NCBI GenBank assembly: GCA_903906515.1 | Contig: CAIVKO010000044.1 | Coordinates: 1 to 64,000 of the forward strand | Direction: 5' to 3' | DNA: 64,000 bases | Source of the DNA: Akkermansiaceae bacterium | Lineage (GTDB): Bacteria > Verrucomicrobiota > Verrucomicrobiia > Verrucomicrobiales > Akkermansiaceae | In this document: in pieces, positions 14,167 through 24,528 of the stretch | How positions within the stretch are numbered: the stretch's first letter is position 1 | Layout of the letters: every line of letters starts with the position of its first letter | The notes under the pieces: model-generated | The model's database searches: none | Seen by the model: the letters and a program-made list of their open reading frames with translations, nothing else | Told to the model about the DNA's origin: nothing | Position numbers and translations under genes: made by a program

Positions 14167-14898
14167 ATGTCAAATGACCTCCAGGCGCAACAGATTACGT
14201 TATCTTCATCTGATTATGACCTTCGTATAACCAATCTTGCCCGATTCATTTTCAAGAAACTGCCAGTCAAGTCAGGAACATTCATGGATATCGGTGCTGG
14301 CAACGGATTGTTCCTTAAATTTTTTAAAAACAAAGGGTTTGAAGTCGAAGGAATCGAACTCGAAAAAGAGCAGGTGCACGAGATGCAAAAAGACAGCAAA
14401 CTCAAAGATGTCAAAATTCAACAAGGAGATATCACCCAATTACACGGAAATGCGGATTTCGACGTCGTCATCGCGTCTGATGTGATCGAGCATATTGAAG
14501 ATGATGTTACAGCTCTCCGGAACTTGTTCACCTTCGTGAAAATGAATGGCCACCTGATAATCACGGTGCCTGCACACATGTATCTCTATGGCAAACGAGA
14601 TGAAAAATGGGGGCATTATCGCCGATACGGAAATCGAGATTTGATAAATAAAATCAGCTTGCTTACGGACTCAAAAATCATCTCGGTTTCCCAGTGGAAT
14701 ATTTTAGGATATATCGCGTATTTTTTCTTTGAGCGAATACTGCGCCGACCAATTCGAGAAGGGTTCAGGTATAAGCGATCTCCTTTCTCGAAATTTGTCG
14801 TTTTTTTGTCTGATTCGATTTTAAAATTGGAGGAGTTAGTTGGTGGATCTCCTGTCGGGCTGACTTTAGTTGCTGTTGTGAAGAAAAAACAGGTTTGA
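14167..14898 (+). CDS. class I SAM-dependent methyltransferase, AT-rich
   Basis: Methyltransferase of 243 residues with motif I MDIGAGNGLFLKFF, an acidic strand-2 end VEGIELEK and the motif IV region DVVIASDVIEHIEDD. The YLYGKRDEKWGHYRRY stretch is seen in methyltransferases of surface-glycan clusters. The C-terminal third carries a hydrophobic segment (ILGYIAYFFFERIL) that may associate with the membrane. Base composition is clearly more AT-rich and Lys/Ile/Asn-rich than the neighbours, suggesting recent transfer. It opens the plus-strand glycan block, but a 143-bp gap separates it from the next gene. Confidence 0.85.
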   Translation: MSNDLQAQQITLSSSDYDLRITNLARFIFKKLPVKSGTFMDIGAGNGLFLKFFKNKGFEVEGIELEKEQVHEMQKDSKLKDVKIQQGDITQLHGNADFDVVIASDVIEHIEDDVTALRNLFTFVKMNGHLIITVPAHMYLYGKRDEKWGHYRRYGNRDLINKISLLTDSKIISVSQWNILGYIAYFFFERILRRPIREGFRYKRSPFSKFVVFLSDSILKLEELVGGSPVGLTLVAVVKKKQV

Positions 14899-15041
14899 AA
14901 TCGTGCTCTGAAAACCCTAGGATTCACATGTGATTTACACCACGCACTTTTCTTCCCTTCTCCGATTTTCAATTCAGTTCTCTATACATAATACTTAACA
15001 GAAGTCTTTTTCTGGGAAAAAACCAATCAACTTTCGCATTC

Positions 15042-16682
15042 ATGCGATTCTGGGTCAGCCTTCTATGGAGACGCCTTGCGAGTCACGCGCTGGGATTTCA
15101 GGCTTTGATCATAGTCATCAGTGCCTTCGGAGGATTGATCTCATTCTTCATGCCATTCGGCCGCGACCATGGTAATTACGCATACGCGGGCTGGGCCTTC
15201 AATTCAGGGGCCAGGCTATACCAGGATGTTCTTTCATTCAAGCCTCCCATGACTGTATATGTCCACAGTTTTTCACAACTGGCATTCGGGCATCACGTGT
15301 GGTCCATTCGCATGCTGGACTGTGTCATTATTTCCCTTATTGCGCTAATGATTTTCAGAGTGTTATCGGCGTGTTTTTTTTCGCCAAAAACAGCATTCAT
15401 GGGGAGCTTGTTTTATCTGCTTCAATACTGGGGCTATGATTATTGGAACGCCGCACAGACGGATCACTGGGCACAGTTGCCTATTGTATTAAGTATTCTT
15501 ATAATTCTCAAGTCGAAGCCGTTGTCGTATTCCCGCTGCATGCTGAGTGGCTTTCTCGGAATGGCGGCGGTTCTTTTCAAGTATCCATTTATCATTATCT
15601 GGCTTCCGATCACGGTATTTCTTGTTGTCTCTAACATTCGTCAATACAAGACGGGCCGCCTTGTGAGGTCGGCCATAATTGCCACCGCCATGTGCATGGG
15701 TGGTGTTGTTGCATTGCTGGTATTCATGTCCCCCATGCTCTCTAAGCAAGGTTTGGCGTCTTTCATGGACGTTCAGGCGATGATGGTTGCTCCCTATGCC
15801 AAGCTGGGCATCTCATTGAGTGCGCCGGAATTGCTGTTTAAACTGCTTGGGGTCCTTTTCACCCACTCATCTCTCCTCCCTACCGGGATACTGGTATTTT
15901 TCGCCACGATTCTAGTAGTTCTGGTGAAGCGACCCAGGACTCAGGAGGATCAGCACCCAGCGATCCTCGTGCTTTCCTTCCTATGGCTGGCATGTGCTGC
16001 ACTTGCCTGCCTTGTGCAGACCAAGTTCTTCGTCTATCACTACGCGCCGATGCTGCTTCCCACGGCCATTCTCGGTGCGCTTGCATTTGATCGATTGGCC
16101 CGGCGTATCAGCCCGCCCGGCGCATCCATGAAACTATGGGTTCCGACCGTTTGCTGCGTTGCGTGGTGGTTGGTTTTCCTAGGTGATGGGCTCAGGGAGA
16201 ATCTGCGGTTTGCTTATGATGCCTGGCGGCATCCCTCGCTCCCAGCCTCTTACGACAGACTGGCAAAGGCGTCCATGCGCGACTACTCGCTTGTGGATAT
16301 CACGCTACTGGCGGATTACCTCTCTGAAAACACCAATTCTGGGGACAAGGTTTTCATCTGGGGTTTTGATCCAACGGTGAATTTCCTGGTGCGACGGTTC
16401 TCCCCGACCCGATTCATATACAATTATCCATTCCGTCTCGATCCGCACAATTCCGGATGGACTCGTGAGTTGCTCTATGACCTCCACTCCAATCCTCCTG
16501 CCAAGGTGGTTATTGCCCGTAATGATGATACCTTTCAAATCACTGGGAACACTTGCGACAGTTTGCAATTGCTGGACTTGATGCCTGAACTCTCCCAATA
16601 TCTTCAAGCCAACTACCAGAAAGAAGGACTCATCGGTTCACATTACATTCTTCTCAAACCCATTAACCTGGACAATCAATGA
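15042..16682 (+). CDS. GT39-like GT-C membrane glycosyltransferase
   Basis: Polytopic membrane protein of 546 residues with roughly ten or more hydrophobic helices. The first periplasmic loop contains GRDHGNYAYAGWAFNSGARLYQD, where the Asp after the first helix is the expected catalytic position of GT-C enzymes, followed by FKPPMTVYVHSF. A C-terminal periplasmic part (SGDKVFIWGFDPTVNFLVRR) is usual in this group. It likely transfers a sugar from a polyprenyl-phosphate donor to a lipid or glycan. Its stop overlaps the next gene (ATGA), which would make the donor, so the two probably work as a pair. Confidence 0.8.
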   Translation: MRFWVSLLWRRLASHALGFQALIIVISAFGGLISFFMPFGRDHGNYAYAGWAFNSGARLYQDVLSFKPPMTVYVHSFSQLAFGHHVWSIRMLDCVIISLIALMIFRVLSACFFSPKTAFMGSLFYLLQYWGYDYWNAAQTDHWAQLPIVLSILIILKSKPLSYSRCMLSGFLGMAAVLFKYPFIIIWLPITVFLVVSNIRQYKTGRLVRSAIIATAMCMGGVVALLVFMSPMLSKQGLASFMDVQAMMVAPYAKLGISLSAPELLFKLLGVLFTHSSLLPTGILVFFATILVVLVKRPRTQEDQHPAILVLSFLWLACAALACLVQTKFFVYHYAPMLLPTAILGALAFDRLARRISPPGASMKLWVPTVCCVAWWLVFLGDGLRENLRFAYDAWRHPSLPASYDRLAKASMRDYSLVDITLLADYLSENTNSGDKVFIWGFDPTVNFLVRRFSPTRFIYNYPFRLDPHNSGWTRELLYDLHSNPPAKVVIARNDDTFQITGNTCDSLQLLDLMPELSQYLQANYQKEGLIGSHYILLKPINLDNQ

Positions 16683-17662
16683 CCGACAGTCGCACCACCA
16701 CCCATCAAGGCCCGGGCTTGTCCATCGTGATCCCTGCCTACAACGAAGCTGATTCCATACCTGAATTGATGTTCGAAATTCAGCAATCGATGGAGGCTCA
16801 GGATTTTCCGTGGGAAGTCATTTTTGTCGATGATGGATCTTCCGATGGAACACTAGTCGCGATGAGGGACGCCGCTCGCGGGAACAAACGCGTTACCGTT
16901 ATTCCATTTACACGGAATCAGGGGAAGAGCGCCGCTTATACCACAGCTTTCGAGATAGCGAAATACCCACTCGTTGCCACAATGGATGCCGATCTTCAGG
17001 ATGATCCGCATGAACTATCCGCAATGATCCAGCTTCTCCATAGTGGGTGGGATCTGGTGGTCGGTTACAAGCAGGGCAGGATGGGCAATGAGGCTAAAAA
17101 AGCCATTCCATCCAGGTTGTTCAACAAATGGACATCGCTGGTGTTTGGGCTGAAACTACACGATTACAATAGCGGTCTCCGTGTGATGAGGAGGGAGGTC
17201 TGCACCGATCTGGATTTATATTCCGGCCGCTATCGATTCATTCCTGCTCTTGCCCGCCTCCAGGGATTTCGTGTCACCGAACAACCGGTGCATCACCGGA
17301 AGCGGAAATTCGGCAAGTCCAAATTTGGCCCTTCACGGTTTCTCACCGGTTTGTTGGATATTTTTTCGATCCGTATCATCAGTTTGTTCAATCAGAGACC
17401 CTTCCATCTGTTTGGCAGCATTGGTTTGATTTTGTTTCTCATCGGAACAGGTCTTGCAGGGTTGACCCTTTACCGGAAAATCTGGAATCATGATTTGTTC
17501 AGCAACCATTTCGCCGCCATCATCTCTGCTGCGACTTGCGCAATCCTAGCGGTTCACTTCGCCGCCATTGGCATCATTGGAGAACTCCTGCTGGTCGTAT
17601 CAAGGCGCCAATCCAGGCGGTCAATTCAAGAAAACCACAACCTCACCGACCCTGAAGCATGA
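16679..17662 (+). CDS. GT2 polyprenyl-phosphate glycosyltransferase (DPM1/GtrB-like)
   Basis: The 327-residue protein has a GT-A domain with SIVIPAYNEADSIPEL, FVDDGSSDGT and MDADLQDDP (DxD region), followed by GYKQGRMGNEAKKAIPSRLFNKW, as in dolichol/undecaprenyl-phosphate sugar synthases. Two hydrophobic segments form the C-terminus (FGSIGLILFLIGTGLAGL and IISAATCAILAVHFAAIGIIG), as in GtrB. It likely loads a hexose from a nucleotide sugar onto polyprenyl phosphate at the inner membrane. Four-base overlaps with both neighbours indicate a coupled operon. Confidence 0.9.
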   Translation: MTDSRTTTHQGPGLSIVIPAYNEADSIPELMFEIQQSMEAQDFPWEVIFVDDGSSDGTLVAMRDAARGNKRVTVIPFTRNQGKSAAYTTAFEIAKYPLVATMDADLQDDPHELSAMIQLLHSGWDLVVGYKQGRMGNEAKKAIPSRLFNKWTSLVFGLKLHDYNSGLRVMRREVCTDLDLYSGRYRFIPALARLQGFRVTEQPVHHRKRKFGKSKFGPSRFLTGLLDIFSIRIISLFNQRPFHLFGSIGLILFLIGTGLAGLTLYRKIWNHDLFSNHFAAIISAATCAILAVHFAAIGIIGELLLVVSRRQSRRSIQENHNLTDPEA

Positions 17663-18255
17663 ACCGTACATATCACTGTAAGAAATATACGGATGGGACG
17701 AAGAACCCTCTGGTGAACGCGTTGCTCAACCGTTTTATGCAAAAGGTGAAAGGCTGCATAGAGGATTTCGTCCCTCAATCTGTGTTGGATGTGGGTTGCG
17801 GGGATGGCTCTGCTCTGCACTATCTGTCGGACGCGATCCCGCAGGATTATTTAGGAATAGACATGGACGAGGACGCCCTTGCCTTATGCCGTGTCCGACA
17901 CCCATTCCGCTGTTTCCAGTCTGGAAACATCTTCGCCCTGCCCATGGAAGACGGCAGTCATCATATCGCGTTGTGTCTGGAAGTGCTGGAGCACTTGGAA
18001 GATCCCGAATGTGCCGTCCGGGAACTCCTCAGAGTCGTGGACCGCGGACTGGTCCTGTCCGTGCCATGGGAGCCATGGTTCCAACTGGGAAATTTGGCGC
18101 GTGGCAAACATATCTTCGCCTTGGGCAATCATCCCGAACATATCCATCATTGGACGCCGTCGTCCTTTGGCCGGTTCCTTCACGAAATAGACCCCAGCGC
18201 CCGTATCAAGTTTCATAACGCGTGGCCTTGGATTATCGCATCCATGGCAAAATGA
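17659..18255 (+). CDS. class I SAM-dependent methyltransferase
   Basis: Methyltransferase of 198 residues. Motif I is VLDVGCGDGSALHYL near residue 36, the acidic residue is in YLGIDMDEDAL, and the motif IV block is ALCLEVLEHLEDPECAVREL. No membrane segment is seen. It is translationally coupled to the GT2 gene upstream and the flippase-like gene downstream, so it probably methylates a glycan, lipid carrier or precursor of the same pathway. Confidence 0.87.
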   Translation: MNRTYHCKKYTDGTKNPLVNALLNRFMQKVKGCIEDFVPQSVLDVGCGDGSALHYLSDAIPQDYLGIDMDEDALALCRVRHPFRCFQSGNIFALPMEDGSHHIALCLEVLEHLEDPECAVRELLRVVDRGLVLSVPWEPWFQLGNLARGKHIFALGNHPEHIHHWTPSSFGRFLHEIDPSARIKFHNAWPWIIASMAK

Positions 18256-19163
18256 ACATAGCATCTCTCAAGTCTTGGTTACGCTTTGGAGTGTCGATTC
18301 TGGTGTCCGGTTGGATTCTATATGCCCTGCTGAGTCGTCATGGAGTGGAACAGATTGTTCGTCCTATTGGAAACTTGAGCGGCGGCATGATGCTTGGTTT
18401 GATTCTAACTTTTTTGTTCACGGTATGGGCTGCAGCCTACAAAATCATGAATCTCGTGGAAATCTTTGGTGCAAGACCGCGCTTCACGCAGGTGCTCCGC
18501 AGTTTACTGGTTTCCGCCGCCTTCAACAGTATTTTGCCGGGACGACTGGGAGATCTGCACCGGATTTCCCTCTTGGCCAGAATTCCTCATCTCAAAGCGG
18601 CACCGTTCATGATCGTCTTGTTAGAGCGTTATCTGGATATCGGGGTCATCCTCGGCCTTCTCTCTACGGTCACATTCTTCAGCAGCGGTCGGCACGCACC
18701 ATGGATTGAGGGCGTCAGCCTCGGCCTTGTGATCTTTCAAGGGATTTTATGGGTGGGTCTCTCCAAGTGGTCCGGCCCTACGCCTCTCATCGCATCCCTG
18801 AATCGCATGGTGCTTGTTTGGTTGGATTGCCCCAGGCTGTATGTGAAGACCCTTGGCTGGGGAGCGCTCTCTTGGGGGCTGAACATGAGTCTGCTTACCC
18901 TGGCCCTGCACTCCTGCTTTCCTTTCGTTCCAATCCGGGATGTTGTTGCGGCGGGGGCATTGGGAGTGGCGGCGGGGCTTTCCCCCATCGGAGTCAATGG
19001 ACTAGGGGTTCGCGAAGCCGTTCTGATCTATTGTTTTCCCTTGTTGAATCCTGCCGGTGTCATTCAGGCAGGCCTGATCTACTTTGCTTTTACTGCCGTT
19101 CCTATGATCATTGCGGGCGTGGTCACTATTTCCTTGGGCCATTGGTCCAAATACAAAAATTGA
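18252..19163 (+). CDS. lysylphosphatidylglycerol synthase TM-region/flippase-like membrane protein
   Basis: Polytopic protein of the LPG_synthase_TM (UPF0104/COG0392) type. The track starts at 18222, but ATG 18252 overlaps the upstream stop as ATGA and begins MNIASLKSWLRFG, giving 303 residues. Family features are LLVSAAFNSILPGRLGDLHRISLLAR and a later AAGLSPIGVNGLGVREAVLI. Such stand-alone proteins accompany GT2/GT-C genes and are suspected lipid-carrier transporters; that function is inferred. It is the last gene of the plus block, convergent with the dprE2-like gene. Confidence 0.85.
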   Translation: MNIASLKSWLRFGVSILVSGWILYALLSRHGVEQIVRPIGNLSGGMMLGLILTFLFTVWAAAYKIMNLVEIFGARPRFTQVLRSLLVSAAFNSILPGRLGDLHRISLLARIPHLKAAPFMIVLLERYLDIGVILGLLSTVTFFSSGRHAPWIEGVSLGLVIFQGILWVGLSKWSGPTPLIASLNRMVLVWLDCPRLYVKTLGWGALSWGLNMSLLTLALHSCFPFVPIRDVVAAGALGVAAGLSPIGVNGLGVREAVLIYCFPLLNPAGVIQAGLIYFAFTAVPMIIAGVVTISLGHWSKYKN

Positions 19164-19179
19164 CATCTCCGGGAGATGT
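19163..19179 (+). terminator. hairpin at the convergent glycan-block junction
   Basis: ACATCTCC-G-GGAGATGT is a perfect 8-bp stem starting at the last base of the stop codon, before a weakly T-rich stretch. It is a plausible terminator, without a long U-tract. Confidence 0.4.
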
Positions 19180-19233: not shown

Positions 19234-19986
19234 TCAGAGTTTCGTGCGATGCAGGAGTGAGCTTGGGAGGATGCGGATCAAGGTCATGATGAATTTCCAC
19301 CAACCGGGCAGATAGGCGACGGGTGGGGCGGATTGGATCGCGCGCCAACTTTGGGTGCCGACGGCTTCGGCCGAGCTGAAAAGCGGGCCTTTGGGAAGGT
19401 GGCTGGTCATGGGGGTGTCGGTCATGCCGGGTTTCAGGGTGACGATTTTGATTTTCCGGTGTTGGGAAAACTGGTGGCGCATGCCGGCGAGGAAGGTGTC
19501 GATGCCGGCTTTGGCCGAGCCGTAGATAAAATTGGAGCCGCGGCCACGGTCACCTGCGACGGAGCCGAACACAGCGAGCGTGCCGTGGTTTTGTTTTACG
19601 AGGATTTGGGCGCAAGCGGCGGCGATGACGGCCGGGCTGGTGAAATTGATGTGGAGCTCGGCGGCCAGTGATTCCGGGTCTCGCAGTGTGGTGTCTTGGT
19701 CAGGGAGCGATCCGTGAGCGATGAGCAGCAGGTCCCATGGATCGGATTGGGCGTTGTCGGTTAGAATTTGAAGCCAGTTGGTTTTCGGGTCCAGGAAATC
19801 GGCGACAAGCGTGGTGCATTCGGCACCGCGCGAGCGTAAATCGTTGGCGACGGATTCGAGGCGGCCAGGGTGGCGACCGATCAGCAGGAGCTTGGTCGTT
19901 TTTTCGCGGGCCATTGCCCGCAATGTCTCGATGCAAATGGCCGAGGTGGCCCCGAAAATGGCGGCATGATAAGGGCGGGTGCTCAT
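19234..19986 (-). CDS. dprE2: DprE2-like short-chain dehydrogenase
   Basis: SDR protein of 250 residues with GATSAICIETLRAMA (variant Rossmann motif), LLIAHGSLPDQ, and the catalytic Tyr/Lys in FIYGSAKAGIDTFLAGMRH. The GATSxIxxE opening matches DprE2, which reduces the 2-keto intermediate made by DprE1 to give decaprenylphospho-arabinofuranose. The start overlaps the DprE1-like stop (ATGA), the order known from arabinan pathways. It is the last gene of the minus-strand operon. Confidence 0.85.
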   Translation of the reverse strand: MSTRPYHAAIFGATSAICIETLRAMAREKTTKLLLIGRHPGRLESVANDLRSRGAECTTLVADFLDPKTNWLQILTDNAQSDPWDLLLIAHGSLPDQDTTLRDPESLAAELHINFTSPAVIAAACAQILVKQNHGTLAVFGSVAGDRGRGSNFIYGSAKAGIDTFLAGMRHQFSQHRKIKIVTLKPGMTDTPMTSHLPKGPLFSSAEAVGTQSWRAIQSAPPVAYLPGWWKFIMTLIRILPSSLLHRTKL

Positions 19987-21293
19987 GACGGGGTGGTGGC
20001 TGAGGTCATTCGTTTCCAGAAATCTGACGAGAATTTCGTGTCGAGGAAGGACTTGAAGGATTCAAGTTGTGGATAGGTCTGCGAGAAATCCCGGGCATTC
20101 ATGCGAGCATCCTTGGCGGGGTAGAGCCGGCCGTGGCAGGCGCGCACGATTTCATCGAGTTGGAGGAAGAGGTCGCGGGTGGCAGGGTCACGTTGTGGGA
20201 AATCGAGTGCGAGGGTGATGCCCGGCTGAGGGAATGAAAGCATGCCGGGGGAGGGGACATCGCCGAAGGTTTTGAGGACGGCGAGGAAGGATGCCTGACC
20301 GGACGCGGCTATTTTGGTTAGAATTTGTTTCATGGGCTCCGTGCCCGCTGCGGTGGGGGTGACGCACTGGTATTGATAGAATCCGGGTTTGCCGTAGATG
20401 CGATTCCATTCGTTGACGCCGTCGAGTGGATAGAAAAACGGGGCGTAGTGTTGATGCAGCGTTTTCGTTTTTCCGAGAAAGCGTCGATAATACAGAGTGT
20501 TGAACGCTTGGACGGTGAAGCGGTTCAATGTGAACCCGGGCATTTCGAAGGGCGCGGTCAGGCGGGCCGTGCGGTGGGTGCTGAGATCACCACGGTCGCT
20601 CCATTTGCCACGGATGAAGATGCCGCGTCCGAGTGAATTGCCGCTGGCAACGCAGTCGATCCACGCCACGGTGTGCTCCCATGTTTCGGAGGACGACGCG
20701 GAAATCTCCATGAATTCGTCCAAGCCGCAGAAGCGGGTGAGTTCGACATCCAGATGGGCGGAGCGGATGGGGACGAGTTGGATTTCCGCTGAGGTGATCA
20801 GGCCGGTGAGTCCGAGGCCGCCGATGGTTGCGGCCAGCATCGGGTCACCGGGGCGGAGGGTATGGCGCGAGCCGTCCGAGCGGAGCAGGTCAAGCATGCG
20901 CACGTGATTGCCGAAACAACCGGCGCTGTGATGGTTTTTTCCATGGACGTCATTGGCGATGGCTCCGCCGAGGGTGATTTGGGAGGTGCCGGGAGTGGTG
21001 GGGAGAAACCAGCCTTTTGGCACGCAGAATCGGAGGATGGCGGCCAAGGTGATGCCTGATTCCGCGCGCAGGATGCCTGTTTGTGGATCGAAGTGCTGAA
21101 TGCGGTCCAGAAATCGGGTTTCAATCATCGTGCCGCCGTCCAGCAGGCAGCTATCGCCGTAGGATCGGCCCAGTCCGTAGGCGAGAAACGGGCCGGTGCC
21201 TGGGAGATCATTGGGAATCCATGCCGGAGCAAGCAGTTTCGCGGTGGCAGGTCTGAGTTTTCCCCATGAGTGAAATGTTTTCGTGGCGGTCAT
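19983..21293 (-). CDS. dprE1: DprE1-like FAD-dependent oxidoreductase
   Basis: The track ORF begins at 21470 but overlaps the UbiA gene. ATG 21293 (MTATKTFHSWGKLRPA) overlaps its stop as ATGA and is preferred (436 aa). The FAD-binding block is AYGLGRSYGDSCLLDGG, followed by PTTPGTSQITLGGAIANDVHGKNHHSAGCFGNHV. This matches decaprenylphosphoryl-ribose 2-oxidase, including the GKNHH part; the covalently targeted Cys of mycobacterial DprE1 was not located. The C-terminus DARMNARDFSQTYPQLESFK, with a tyrosine, is typical of the family. It is predicted to oxidise the 2-OH of polyprenylphospho-ribofuranose. Confidence 0.88.
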   Translation of the reverse strand: MTATKTFHSWGKLRPATAKLLAPAWIPNDLPGTGPFLAYGLGRSYGDSCLLDGGTMIETRFLDRIQHFDPQTGILRAESGITLAAILRFCVPKGWFLPTTPGTSQITLGGAIANDVHGKNHHSAGCFGNHVRMLDLLRSDGSRHTLRPGDPMLAATIGGLGLTGLITSAEIQLVPIRSAHLDVELTRFCGLDEFMEISASSSETWEHTVAWIDCVASGNSLGRGIFIRGKWSDRGDLSTHRTARLTAPFEMPGFTLNRFTVQAFNTLYYRRFLGKTKTLHQHYAPFFYPLDGVNEWNRIYGKPGFYQYQCVTPTAAGTEPMKQILTKIAASGQASFLAVLKTFGDVPSPGMLSFPQPGITLALDFPQRDPATRDLFLQLDEIVRACHGRLYPAKDARMNARDFSQTYPQLESFKSFLDTKFSSDFWKRMTSATTPS

Positions 21294-22747
21294 GGCGATG
21301 GAATGGGCGAGGCGAGCAGAACACAAGCAAGGGCAAAGGCGGCAATCAGCCAGGTGCTGCGGTCCTTGATGGCGAAAACGACCGGGTCGTCGTGCATGAT
21401 GCCGCGTTTGGTGAGGAACCAGACGCGGGTGATCCAGTAAAGGGCGGCGACACAGACGCCCCAGAACCATTCCGGGTGGTGGTAGAGGGCTGTCACTTGG
21501 GTGCTGTTGGAGTAAAGACCAAGGACCACGATCGAGGCGATACCGGTGGAAATGCCGAATTCGGACACCATGGGCAGGTCTTCCTGATGGTATCCGCGTC
21601 CTGGCAAGAGGGATTCGTTACCAGTTGCCGTCGTGCGGCGGAGTTCCACAAACCGTTTCATGGCCGCGAGCGAAAGGAAGAAGAGGAAGGTGAAGGCAAA
21701 GAGCCAGAACGAGACGACTGCCAGGGAGATTACGATGCCCGCCACGATGCGTGAGAGATAGAGCAAGGCCAGAACGAAGATGTCCGCGATGGCGATGCGC
21801 TTGAGTACCAGTGAATAGGCGAGCGTGGTGATGATGTAGCCGAAAAGAAGAAGCCCGAACTGCCATTTCAGATAAAACGCGCCACCCAGGCCTGCGGCAA
21901 CGAGCAGCAGGGAGACGGAAATCAGACGGTGCACGGAAGTCCTGCCTGAGGCTGCCATGCGGTCTTTTTTGGTGGCATGTGAGCGGTCGTGATCCATGTC
22001 TAACAAATCATTCCAGATATACGTTCCGGATGCGCAGAGGCTGATTGCGAGGAACGCGGCGGTGAGGCCCGCCAGTTGCCATGGTTCGTTGAAATGGTGG
22101 CCGACAAGAAACGGCACGGCGATCAGCAGGTTTTTCGACCATTGGTGGATGCGCAGCGCCCTGACCCAGTCTTTCCACGTGGTGCGACCGCCCGTTGGGA
22201 TGACGCGTTCCACGTCAAACATGGATGACCATCGTTTCACCAGGCGCTTGGAGCGCTGGACGACGATGGCTTTTCTAGCGACCTGCCAAACGGCTTCGTC
22301 GGCAGTGGAGTCTCCTGCATAGTCGAATCCCTTGTTGCCGTAGCGTTCCACAAGGGCCTTGGCTTTTGCGGAGCCCTTGAGATTGATCGTGTCATCGCTG
22401 GCGAGAACGTCATCGAAGGGGAACGTCTGAAGGATAGGCCCTAGAAACGAGCGGTGCGCGGCGGTGGCCAGCACGATTTTGCGACCTTTGGATTTTTCCT
22501 CGTATAGGAAAGTCAGGAGACGTTGGTTGAGAGGAGGAGCGAGAACAGGAGGAGGAGCGTGCTGGGTAAGCCGGGATTTGAGGATATGTCTGCCTGATAA
22601 CAACCACCATGGGATGTGCAGCAGGCGCGCGGGCTTGCTGCGGATGAGGCGCAGGATCGCATCCCACATCATGTCGCCGCGGATGAATGTGCCATCGAGA
22701 TCCACGCAAAGCGGAACGGTGGGTGTGTTGGTTTGTTGATCAGGCAT
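21290..22747 (-). CDS. HAD phosphatase fused to UbiA prenyltransferase (DPPR synthase-like)
   Basis: Two-domain protein of 485 residues. The N-terminal part (about 1-190) is a HAD phosphatase with nucleophile motif VDLDGTFIRGD, then KIVLATAAH and YAGDSTADEAVW. The C-terminal part (about 195-485) is a UbiA-family membrane domain with NDLLDMDHDRSHATKKDR. The domain pair suits transfer of phosphoribosyl from PRPP to polyprenyl phosphate and removal of the 5-phosphate, giving the DprE1 substrate. It is flanked 20 bp upstream by the TMTC-like gene and overlaps dprE1 downstream. Fusions of this type are known in other bacteria with D-arabinofuranose glycans. Confidence 0.87.
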   Translation of the reverse strand: MPDQQTNTPTVPLCVDLDGTFIRGDMMWDAILRLIRSKPARLLHIPWWLLSGRHILKSRLTQHAPPPVLAPPLNQRLLTFLYEEKSKGRKIVLATAAHRSFLGPILQTFPFDDVLASDDTINLKGSAKAKALVERYGNKGFDYAGDSTADEAVWQVARKAIVVQRSKRLVKRWSSMFDVERVIPTGGRTTWKDWVRALRIHQWSKNLLIAVPFLVGHHFNEPWQLAGLTAAFLAISLCASGTYIWNDLLDMDHDRSHATKKDRMAASGRTSVHRLISVSLLLVAAGLGGAFYLKWQFGLLLFGYIITTLAYSLVLKRIAIADIFVLALLYLSRIVAGIVISLAVVSFWLFAFTFLFFLSLAAMKRFVELRRTTATGNESLLPGRGYHQEDLPMVSEFGISTGIASIVVLGLYSNSTQVTALYHHPEWFWGVCVAALYWITRVWFLTKRGIMHDDPVVFAIKDRSTWLIAAFALACVLLASPIPSP

Positions 22748-22767
22748 GGGAAGTTTGGTCCGTGCTG

Positions 22768-24528
22768 TCAGGGGGCGGATGAGCGGGATTTATCCTTAAC
22801 GATTTTCAGCAATTCCGACAAGTTCGGATCGTTTGGATAGAGTGCGGCGGCTTTGGTTGCCGCGCGCAAGGCGTCATCCCACTTCTTTTGGGCGAGGTAA
22901 CAATCGACATGCATGTAGATCGCCGAAAGGTGACAGGTGCTTTTCGGGTTTTCCAATAGTTTCAGCAGGGTTTCCCGCACCAGGTGGCGTTTATCCTCCT
23001 GGGAAAAGTAGGTGTAGGCGAGATAGTAGCGGGAATAGTCGCTGATGGGCGAGTTTTCCTGGCTGTTGTGGATGGCATCCAGCAGGCGCTTTTCCGCTTC
23101 CTGATAGTTTTTCCTATCGAAAGCCACGCGTCCGAGGACCATGCTGGTGTTGCCGAACCAAGGTGCGGTTGCATAAGATTTCAAGGCCAACTCCTGTGCC
23201 TCTTGCAGGTGCCCACTGAGGAGTAGCTCCCTGGCGACGAAAGTTTGGGCATGGAATTGTCCTGTCCGGGTGAGGTCACAACGCACGAACAATTCCATAG
23301 GGTGCGACCACAAGTCTGCTTGTAGCCAAAACAGCGGAATACACAGGGTTCTCCAGAGTGCGCCGATGCATAGCAGGGTGCCGACGATCAGTTTGTGCGA
23401 GGATTCCGGGTTTTCAGACTCACGCTTGCACCACTCCACCAAGGCTTTCGCGAAGCCTGCGAGGGCGATGGCCAGTCCAAGTCCGGGAAAGACCACATAG
23501 TAGTCGGCGATCGGCCCGACCCGGATGGGAATGAAATTGCATGAAGGAAAGCTGGTGGCGAGAAACCACAACAATCCGCAAGCGATCCATGGCTGCCGCC
23601 GCCAACAGAAATAGATCAGGCCGATGATAGAGAGCAACCAGGTCCAGGCAGCTGCCAATTCCCACGATGAAGCAGAGATGCCCCATAGATACGTGCCGAA
23701 AATTTCGATCCGTCCAAGAGGCATGAGCCACATGCTGAAGTGTTTCCAAAGAAACCACGGGGCCGAAATACTGATCTGCCATGCCGGACTGTCCGGAATG
23801 AATCCTGAATTGGTATATACGGAAAATCTGAAACCCAGCTGGGTGCGCAGGATCAAATAAATCACGGTGACTACGGCCAACAGCCCGTAGCGCATCATTG
23901 TCTTGCGCGTGAAAAGTGATCGCCGCCGTATGGCGTCTGTCAGCACGCACAATGCGGGGACTGCGACTGCGGTTTCGTAGCAAGTTTGTGAGAGGAACAA
24001 AAACAGACAGGCCAGAAAAGTGGATTTTCCGAAGCGGTCCGCTCCGGCTTGTGCGACATCGTGGAAATAGAGGCACGCACAAGCTAACAGAACGGCGAGG
24101 CTGATATTGGCGCAGCTCATCCAGATCACCGTGCTGACCTGGGTGGGGCTGGTGGCCCACATCGCCACCGCGACGAATGCCCAGAGCGGAGACTCCAGGA
24201 GCCGCCGCAGAAATAAATAGATCACAGGGATGGCGGCAAGGTAGAGCGCGAGTCCTAAAACGTGCCATTGGAATACGGGGCGACCATCCATTCCATAAAA
24301 AATGATGTTTTTGATCGGGCGGAACAGGCCATAGACATCGGGTTTGAAACAGTCCTGCCAAGACGTGAACGTGTGGATGTGATTCAGTTCGTCCAGATCA
24401 TCCAGCAGCATCGGGGAACTCATGCCCGGCCACGCGATCAGACAGACCAGAGCGAGCAGAAGCAAAAGGAAGATAGCTTCTTTACAACCAGAGGCGTCAT
24501 GTTTGGCTGGGTTCGGACAGGAAATCAT
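22768..24528 (-). CDS. TMTC-like GT-C membrane protein with C-terminal TPRs
   Basis: The 586-residue protein has about nine to eleven hydrophobic helices. The first loop contains LLDDLDELNHIHTFTSWQDCF and YGLFRPIKNIIFYG, resembling the acidic loop and RP motif of TMTC-type O-glycosyltransferases. The last 190 residues form TPR-like helical pairs (AQTFVARELLLSGHLQEAQELALKSY, RVAFDRKNYQEAEKRLLDAI, DDALRAATKAAALYP). It heads the operon for polyprenylphospho-arabinose, so the simplest hypothesis is an arabinosyltransferase using that donor on the periplasmic side. The acceptor (protein, LPS or pilin) is unknown. Confidence 0.75.
   Translation of the reverse strand: MISCPNPAKHDASGCKEAIFLLLLLALVCLIAWPGMSSPMLLDDLDELNHIHTFTSWQDCFKPDVYGLFRPIKNIIFYGMDGRPVFQWHVLGLALYLAAIPVIYLFLRRLLESPLWAFVAVAMWATSPTQVSTVIWMSCANISLAVLLACACLYFHDVAQAGADRFGKSTFLACLFLFLSQTCYETAVAVPALCVLTDAIRRRSLFTRKTMMRYGLLAVVTVIYLILRTQLGFRFSVYTNSGFIPDSPAWQISISAPWFLWKHFSMWLMPLGRIEIFGTYLWGISASSWELAAAWTWLLSIIGLIYFCWRRQPWIACGLLWFLATSFPSCNFIPIRVGPIADYYVVFPGLGLAIALAGFAKALVEWCKRESENPESSHKLIVGTLLCIGALWRTLCIPLFWLQADLWSHPMELFVRCDLTRTGQFHAQTFVARELLLSGHLQEAQELALKSYATAPWFGNTSMVLGRVAFDRKNYQEAEKRLLDAIHNSQENSPISDYSRYYLAYTYFSQEDKRHLVRETLLKLLENPKSTCHLSAIYMHVDCYLAQKKWDDALRAATKAAALYPNDPNLSELLKIVKDKSRSSAP

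Follow-up and report, generated by a model that had tools for sequence, protein, structure and literature searches.

A putative polyprenylphosphoryl-D-arabinofuranose operon with a TPR-bearing GT-C protein in Akkermansiaceae, and its association with type IV pilus loci in related genomes

Closest described systems

Pseudomonas paraeruginosa arabinosylates its type IV pilins with the GT-C enzyme TfpW, and this modification shields the cells from pilus phages (PMC12369383). Here, we describe an operon of an Akkermansiaceae bacterium (Verrucomicrobiota) that may have a related function. It lies in a stretch of 64,000 nucleotides (GenBank assembly GCA_903906515.1, contig CAIVKO010000044.1, positions 1 to 64,000), henceforth called the window, and consists of genes for a GT-C-type membrane protein with tetratricopeptide repeats (GT-C/TPR), a HAD-UbiA fusion protein and homologues of DprE1 and DprE2. 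In P. paraeruginosa Pa5196/PA7 (PSPA7_6245-6251 plus TfpW), genes of the decaprenylphosphoryl-5-phosphoribose synthase (DPPRS)/UbiA type likewise provide a D-arabinofuranose (D-Araf) donor for a GT-C arabinosyltransferase acting on type IV pilins, but tfpW is part of the pilin cassette there and the donor genes are found on a genomic island (PMC12369383). With TfpW compared by description only, the window stands apart by the TPR domain on its candidate transferase and by its phylum. Furthermore, HAD and UbiA are fused in the window, whereas the UbiA protein of P. aeruginosa has no fused HAD phosphatase (PMC11127046).

A second system of this kind is that of Citrobacter youngae O1/O2 (ORF15, MATE flippase, GT136), which resembles the proposed one in its HAD-UbiA protein making polyprenylphosphoryl-ribofuranose, in periplasmic transfer by a GT-C enzyme and, in the Araf versions, in DprE1/E2 homologues. 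The acceptor is however an O-antigen, the flippase belongs to the MATE type, and the GT-C enzyme has a carbohydrate-binding module instead of TPRs. ORF15, which has the same type of HAD-UbiA fusion, converts phosphoribosyl pyrophosphate (PRPP) and prenyl phosphate into prenylphosphoryl-ribofuranose, and DprE1/E2 homologues occur in Gram-negative loci for Araf glycans (Kelly et al. 2024; PMC11127046). The mycobacterial decaprenylphosphoryl-arabinose pathway (Rv3806c, Rv3807c, DprE1, DprE2, Rv3789) appears, by homology, to follow the same chemistry, and a GtrA-type flippase is also found in relatives of the window. In the window, by contrast, the phosphatase is a HAD protein and is fused, and the Cys targeted by benzothiazinones is an Ala.

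The four-gene operon

The four genes are co-directional on the minus strand:

22768..24528 (minus): GT-C/TPR protein, 586 aa, proposed arabinofuranosyltransferase (from TPR matches, alignment, model and topology)
21290..22747 (minus): HAD-UbiA fusion, 485 aa, putative 5'-phosphoribose phosphatase and polyprenylphosphoryl-5-phosphoribose synthase (from families, motifs and the known homologue ORF15, PMC11127046)
19983..21293 (minus): DprE1-like FAD oxidase, 436 aa, putative polyprenylphosphoryl-ribose 2'-oxidase (from NCBIfam, structure matches and motifs)
19234..19986 (minus): DprE2-like reductase of the short-chain dehydrogenase/reductase (SDR) type, 250 aa (from Pfam and NCBIfam)

A gap of 20 bp separates the stop codon of the GT-C/TPR gene from HAD-UbiA, and 4-base ATGA overlaps occur at both the HAD-UbiA/DprE1 and the DprE1/DprE2 junctions. 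This is the layout that a sequence-only reading of the window had described. The mechanically called DprE1 reading frame, which starts at 21470 (495 aa), is too long, since the homology to DprE1 homologues begins at the ATG at 21293 (436 aa).

Synthesis of the donor

The HAD-UbiA protein is above the NCBIfam cut-off for PRK08238 (562 versus 351 bits) and also matches three DPPR-synthase models of NCBIfam, all below cut-off; its HAD domain (PF12710) exceeds the Pfam cut-off. The motifs of the phosphatase (VDLDGT at residues 15-20, GDSxxD at 145-150) and of the UbiA part (NDLLDMDHDR, and KRFVEL with the R/E of loop IV) are intact. They are kept in close relatives, except for a degenerate phosphatase loop at locus L036, and the N, D, R and E of the UbiA motifs are invariant among 13 aligned sequences. 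By sequence, the protein matches the Rv3806c structure 8j8j (E 4e-20).

The DprE1-like protein scores 375 bits (E 9e-112) with NF053785 of NCBIfam, under the cut-off of 500 of this equivalog model, which was built on mycobacterial-type enzymes. It can be aligned along almost its entire sequence with mycobacterial DprE1 structures (E 1e-77) and has a FAD_binding_4 domain, the HGKNH motif (117-121) and the catalytic residues K341 and K394. For the DprE2-like protein, the SDR fold predicted from its sequence can be regarded as certain; among specific NCBIfam models, it matches best a general SDR model and the DprE2 model NF053786 (143 bits, cut-off 250), both below cut-off. A route to polyprenylphosphoryl-D-Araf through HAD-UbiA, DprE1 and DprE2, as the sequence-only reading had it, is well supported by families, intact motifs and characterized homologues. 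The suggestion that the DprE1-like enzyme might be sensitive to benzothiazinones fares differently: covalent benzothiazinones are predicted to be ineffective, because the reactive Cys387 of mycobacterial DprE1 is replaced by Ala362, an exchange shared by all 11 homologues compared.

The pathway had also been called complete, which does not hold. There is no flippase gene within the operon, and family searches of the window's genome found neither a GtrA (PF04138) nor a Polysacc_synt (PF01943) protein. Six cassettes of the family have a GtrA-type flippase gene between dprE1 and dprE2, and the three-component GT136 system has a dedicated flippase gene in its cluster, unlike the window operon.

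Another UbiA match of the same genome (C58:20000-39900, L006) was rejected as a second HAD-UbiA. It is a plain UbiA-like gene in an unrelated isoprenoid or lipid cluster, together with genes for PEP-utilising-enzyme-like, DUF3419-like and AMP-ligase-like proteins.

The GT-C/TPR protein

Only the TPR region of this protein is recognized by Pfam and NCBIfam, with no match for the GT-C part. A search of the PDB with the sequence alone returned no match, and one with a family profile returned only TPR chains among the 60 matches shown. The GT-C identity is nevertheless supported by the fold of a predicted structure and by profile similarity. Among the 50 PDB matches listed for an AlphaFold model based on nine sequences (pLDDT 81, pTM 0.79), those of GT type are all PglB and STT3-type oligosaccharyltransferases, with TM-scores of about 0.39-0.42. 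According to hhalign, the family is related to a bacterial PMT_2/TPR protein with a probability of 99%. Eleven transmembrane (TM) helices are predicted, with D43-D44 in periplasmic loop 1 and a C-terminal periplasmic TPR domain at about 410-580; helix positions and loop charges place both the DD loop and the TPRs outside the cytoplasm. In an alignment of 22 relatives, DD (43-44) is almost invariant, R70-P71-K73 is invariant, and E185, R228, H263, E275, D342 and Y344 are conserved.

The likeness to TMTC proteins pointed out earlier stands for the architecture but only in part for the motifs. The eukaryotic O-mannosyltransferases TMTC1-4 also have 11 TM helices and trans-side C-terminal TPRs, with DD in luminal loop 1, a conserved E within loop 3 and an RP motif (PMC7801869). 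The GT-C/TPR protein, however, has no DUF1736 match and lacks two motif residues, K in KE(T/Q)xxT and R in ERxxY, with YET and DYY at the equivalent places as judged by eye. Moreover, the TMTC donor is mannose, whereas an arabinose donor is proposed here.

Distribution in the family

The sample comprised 244 genomes of the family (Akkermansiaceae-type Verrucomicrobiota), and a cassette was defined as a HAD-UbiA gene of at least 54% identity together with DprE1 and DprE2. Ten genomes contain it, always with oxidase and reductase as a pair, and in nine of these a GT-C/TPR gene adjoins. The junctions in most loci are overlaps or short gaps, that is, operonic linkage. In a tree of the GT-C/TPR proteins, three clades can be distinguished. 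Clade A contains the window's copy, copies located after dprE2 and orphans, while clade B contains copies located before HAD-UbiA. Both clades, including orphan copies far from the cassette, occur only in cassette-bearing genomes, and all clade C members come from genomes that lack this cassette (among these, G184 has a divergent HAD-UbiA at another place). The association of clades A and B with the cassette has a Fisher p of about 1e-15, calculated without phylogenetic correction. The GT-C/TPR protein thus looks like the dedicated partner that the sequence-only reading took it for, and the verrucomicrobial setting is supported too.

The closest cassette is found in G200, a genome of the window's genus (67/75/65% identity). 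This genome also has a second, divergent HAD-UbiA/DprE1/DprE2 cluster (L088:7802-11455), which is 38/49/36% identical to family members.

Linkage to type IV pilus loci

In seven of the ten genomes (G056, G108, G039, G064, G030, G120 and G200), the cassette is located inside or at most 6 kb from a type IV pilus locus; for a random locus, such proximity would arise by chance in about 1%. These placements are not independent of each other, although the upstream arrangement, the downstream arrangement and the cassette-free clade C form separate cases. The cassettes of G056, G108, G039 and G064 run directly into the pilus locus, which contains ABC transporter genes, PilT, one to three pilins, PilMN, PilO, PilP, PilQ, PilB, PilC and a second pilin (PilB, PilC, PilT, PilQ and pilins named by family matches; PilMN, PilO and PilP by position). 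In G030 and G120, the cassette and the pilus locus are separated just by purF/purM and no more than one further gene, and in G200 the cassette comes after the final genes of this pilus operon. Clade C members of G061, G184 and G117, which have no cassette, are found at the same end of the pilus operon. A remote GT-C/TPR gene of another family in the phylum is also present in a PilB-PilC-regulator-pilin locus, beside a GT87 gene (L136:6369-17437).

Some further features of these loci can be mentioned. Three tandem, near-identical type IV pilins directly follow the cassette and GT-C/TPR gene of G056 (L036:13275-14863). In L044, L045 and L047, the clade C gene at the end of the pilus operon is followed by one for a STELLO-type glycosyltransferase. 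The genes purF and purM are conserved neighbours of the cassette or of the pilus locus (L036-L039, L048, L050); the PRPP required by the cassette is also used by purF. The pilus locus of the window's genome (C227) was considered as a counterpart of the Akkermansia MUL2 pilus locus (Amuc_1098-1102; PMC13174399) and rejected: its secretin reaches only 44 bits, and it differs from the MUL2 locus because the secretins of Amuc_1098 type are encoded elsewhere, on contigs C188 and C67.

Proposed function and alternatives

On balance, we favour the view that the operon makes polyprenylphosphoryl-beta-D-arabinofuranose for use outside the cell, and that the GT-C/TPR protein moves D-Araf most likely to a protein encoded at the pilus locus, such as a type IV pilin, a view that seems somewhat more probable than its negation. 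The fused HAD domain would take off the 5'-phosphate, DprE1 would oxidize C2 of the ribose and DprE2 would reduce the product to arabinose, steps suggested by the close homology to characterized enzymes. A flippase, of GtrA type in most relatives, would then turn the lipid-linked sugar to the periplasmic side. There, the GT-C/TPR protein, with its catalytic D43-D44 loop and TPR domain in the periplasm, would pass D-Araf from the lipid to the acceptor; this role is suggested by co-occurrence and gene linkage. The acceptor would most likely be a type IV pilin or another product of the pilus locus that neighbours the cassette in relatives, to which synteny in these genomes points. A broader proposal is put forward only tentatively, being slightly less likely than not: the GT-C/TPR proteins may form a new bacterial family of protein O-glycosyltransferases with TMTC architecture, of which clades A and B would be the pilin D-arabinofuranosyltransferases of Verrucomicrobiota, and selection of the acceptor protein would fall to the periplasmic TPR domain.

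Several observations weigh against the favoured view. The flippase step has no assigned gene in the window's genome. No pilin-like or pilus genes were found within the window, the pilus locus of its genome lies on another contig (C227) with no cassette there, and in G101 and G093 the stretches read around the cassette contain no pilus genes. In G200, both the cassette and the pilus locus are present, but there is no recognizable GT-C/TPR match. Since the cassettes of the window, G101 and G093 are away from pilus genes and G200 has no GT-C/TPR protein, we infer the pilus acceptor from the relatives. Some GT-C/TPR relatives are found among housekeeping genes; the neighbours of the remote L137-L141 are mostly of this kind and uninformative. 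Finally, loop residues 270-285 and 330-342 of the structure model are predicted with low confidence, and the fold resembles its matches only weakly (TM-score about 0.4).

With the same donor pathway, the GT-C/TPR protein could instead resemble the Citrobacter enzyme GT136, which adds ribofuranose, and place D-Araf on a surface polysaccharide in the periplasm, either exopolysaccharide or the O-chain of lipopolysaccharide (LPS). O-antigens are indeed served by three-component pentofuranose systems that have homologues of DprE1/E2 (PMC11127046), and the window cassette converges on a lipid-linked-sugar operon (GT2, PMT_2 GT-C, two methyltransferases) and not on pilus genes. We consider this unlikely, as most family cassettes and the sister GT-C/TPR clade are at the type IV pilus locus, eukaryotic GT-C enzymes with TPR domains (TMTC) act on proteins, and no O-antigen cluster was recognized beside the cassettes examined, most non-pilus neighbours having no annotation. 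The protein acceptor envisaged in the sequence-only reading is favoured over LPS by the pilus linkage in relatives.

The confinement of clades A and B, distant copies included, to cassette-bearing genomes and the operonic linkage in most loci make it improbable that the GT-C/TPR protein is a mere neighbour that uses another donor (for example, a polyprenyl-P-hexose) and has no part in arabinose transfer. It is true that any tie to arabinose does not extend to the entire family, since clade C occurs in genomes without the cassette and one of its members is beside a GT2 gene. The sugar itself might also differ, if a different pentofuranose is the end point or product of the DprE1/DprE2-like pair, or if the cassette supplies ribofuranose. 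Neither protein reaches the curated cut-off of its mycobacterial equivalog model, and a different SDR epimerase makes xylofuranose in C. youngae O2 (PMC11127046). This seems very improbable, however, in view of the nearly full-length alignment to mycobacterial DprE1 with flavin and catalytic motifs kept, the invariable pairing of oxidase and reductase, and the match of Gram-negative DprE1/E2 loci with Araf glycans (PMC11127046).

The lipid pathway is already known, while the transferase family, the phylum and the pilus linkage appear to be new. No paper joining D-arabinofuranose, type IV pili and Verrucomicrobia was found in a literature search, nor, in the literature searched, any description of the TPR-bearing transferase family, its verrucomicrobial setting or the linkage to a pilus locus. 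If the proposed function is correct, protein glycosylation with D-arabinofuranose reaches beyond Pseudomonas to another phylum, with a different type of transferase, and the operon would be a bacterial, genetically simple case of the GT-C-plus-TPR design of human TMTC enzymes. As phage protection is known for pilin arabinosylation in P. paraeruginosa, the same selective reason is plausible here. The question can be tested, since the cultured Haloferula rosea has the cassette near a pilus locus.

The converging operon

Two further features lie downstream of the four genes:

19163..19179 (minus): stem-loop and T-rich tail lying where the two operons converge; may terminate the minus-strand operon (from a consensus scan)
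18222..19163 (plus): LPG_synthase_TM flippase-like protein in the converging operon, weak candidate for a lipid-sugar flippase

The consensus scan found 8 terminator-type stem-loops, with 6.2 expected by chance. The converging operon (14167-19163, plus strand) contains genes for two methyltransferases, a PMT_2-type GT-C protein, an ArnC/DPM-like GT2 and the LPG_synthase_TM protein, and is probably a second lipid-linked-sugar system. Its PMT_2-type GT-C protein is 27% identical to a GT-C protein encoded beside the cassette in G039 and G064.

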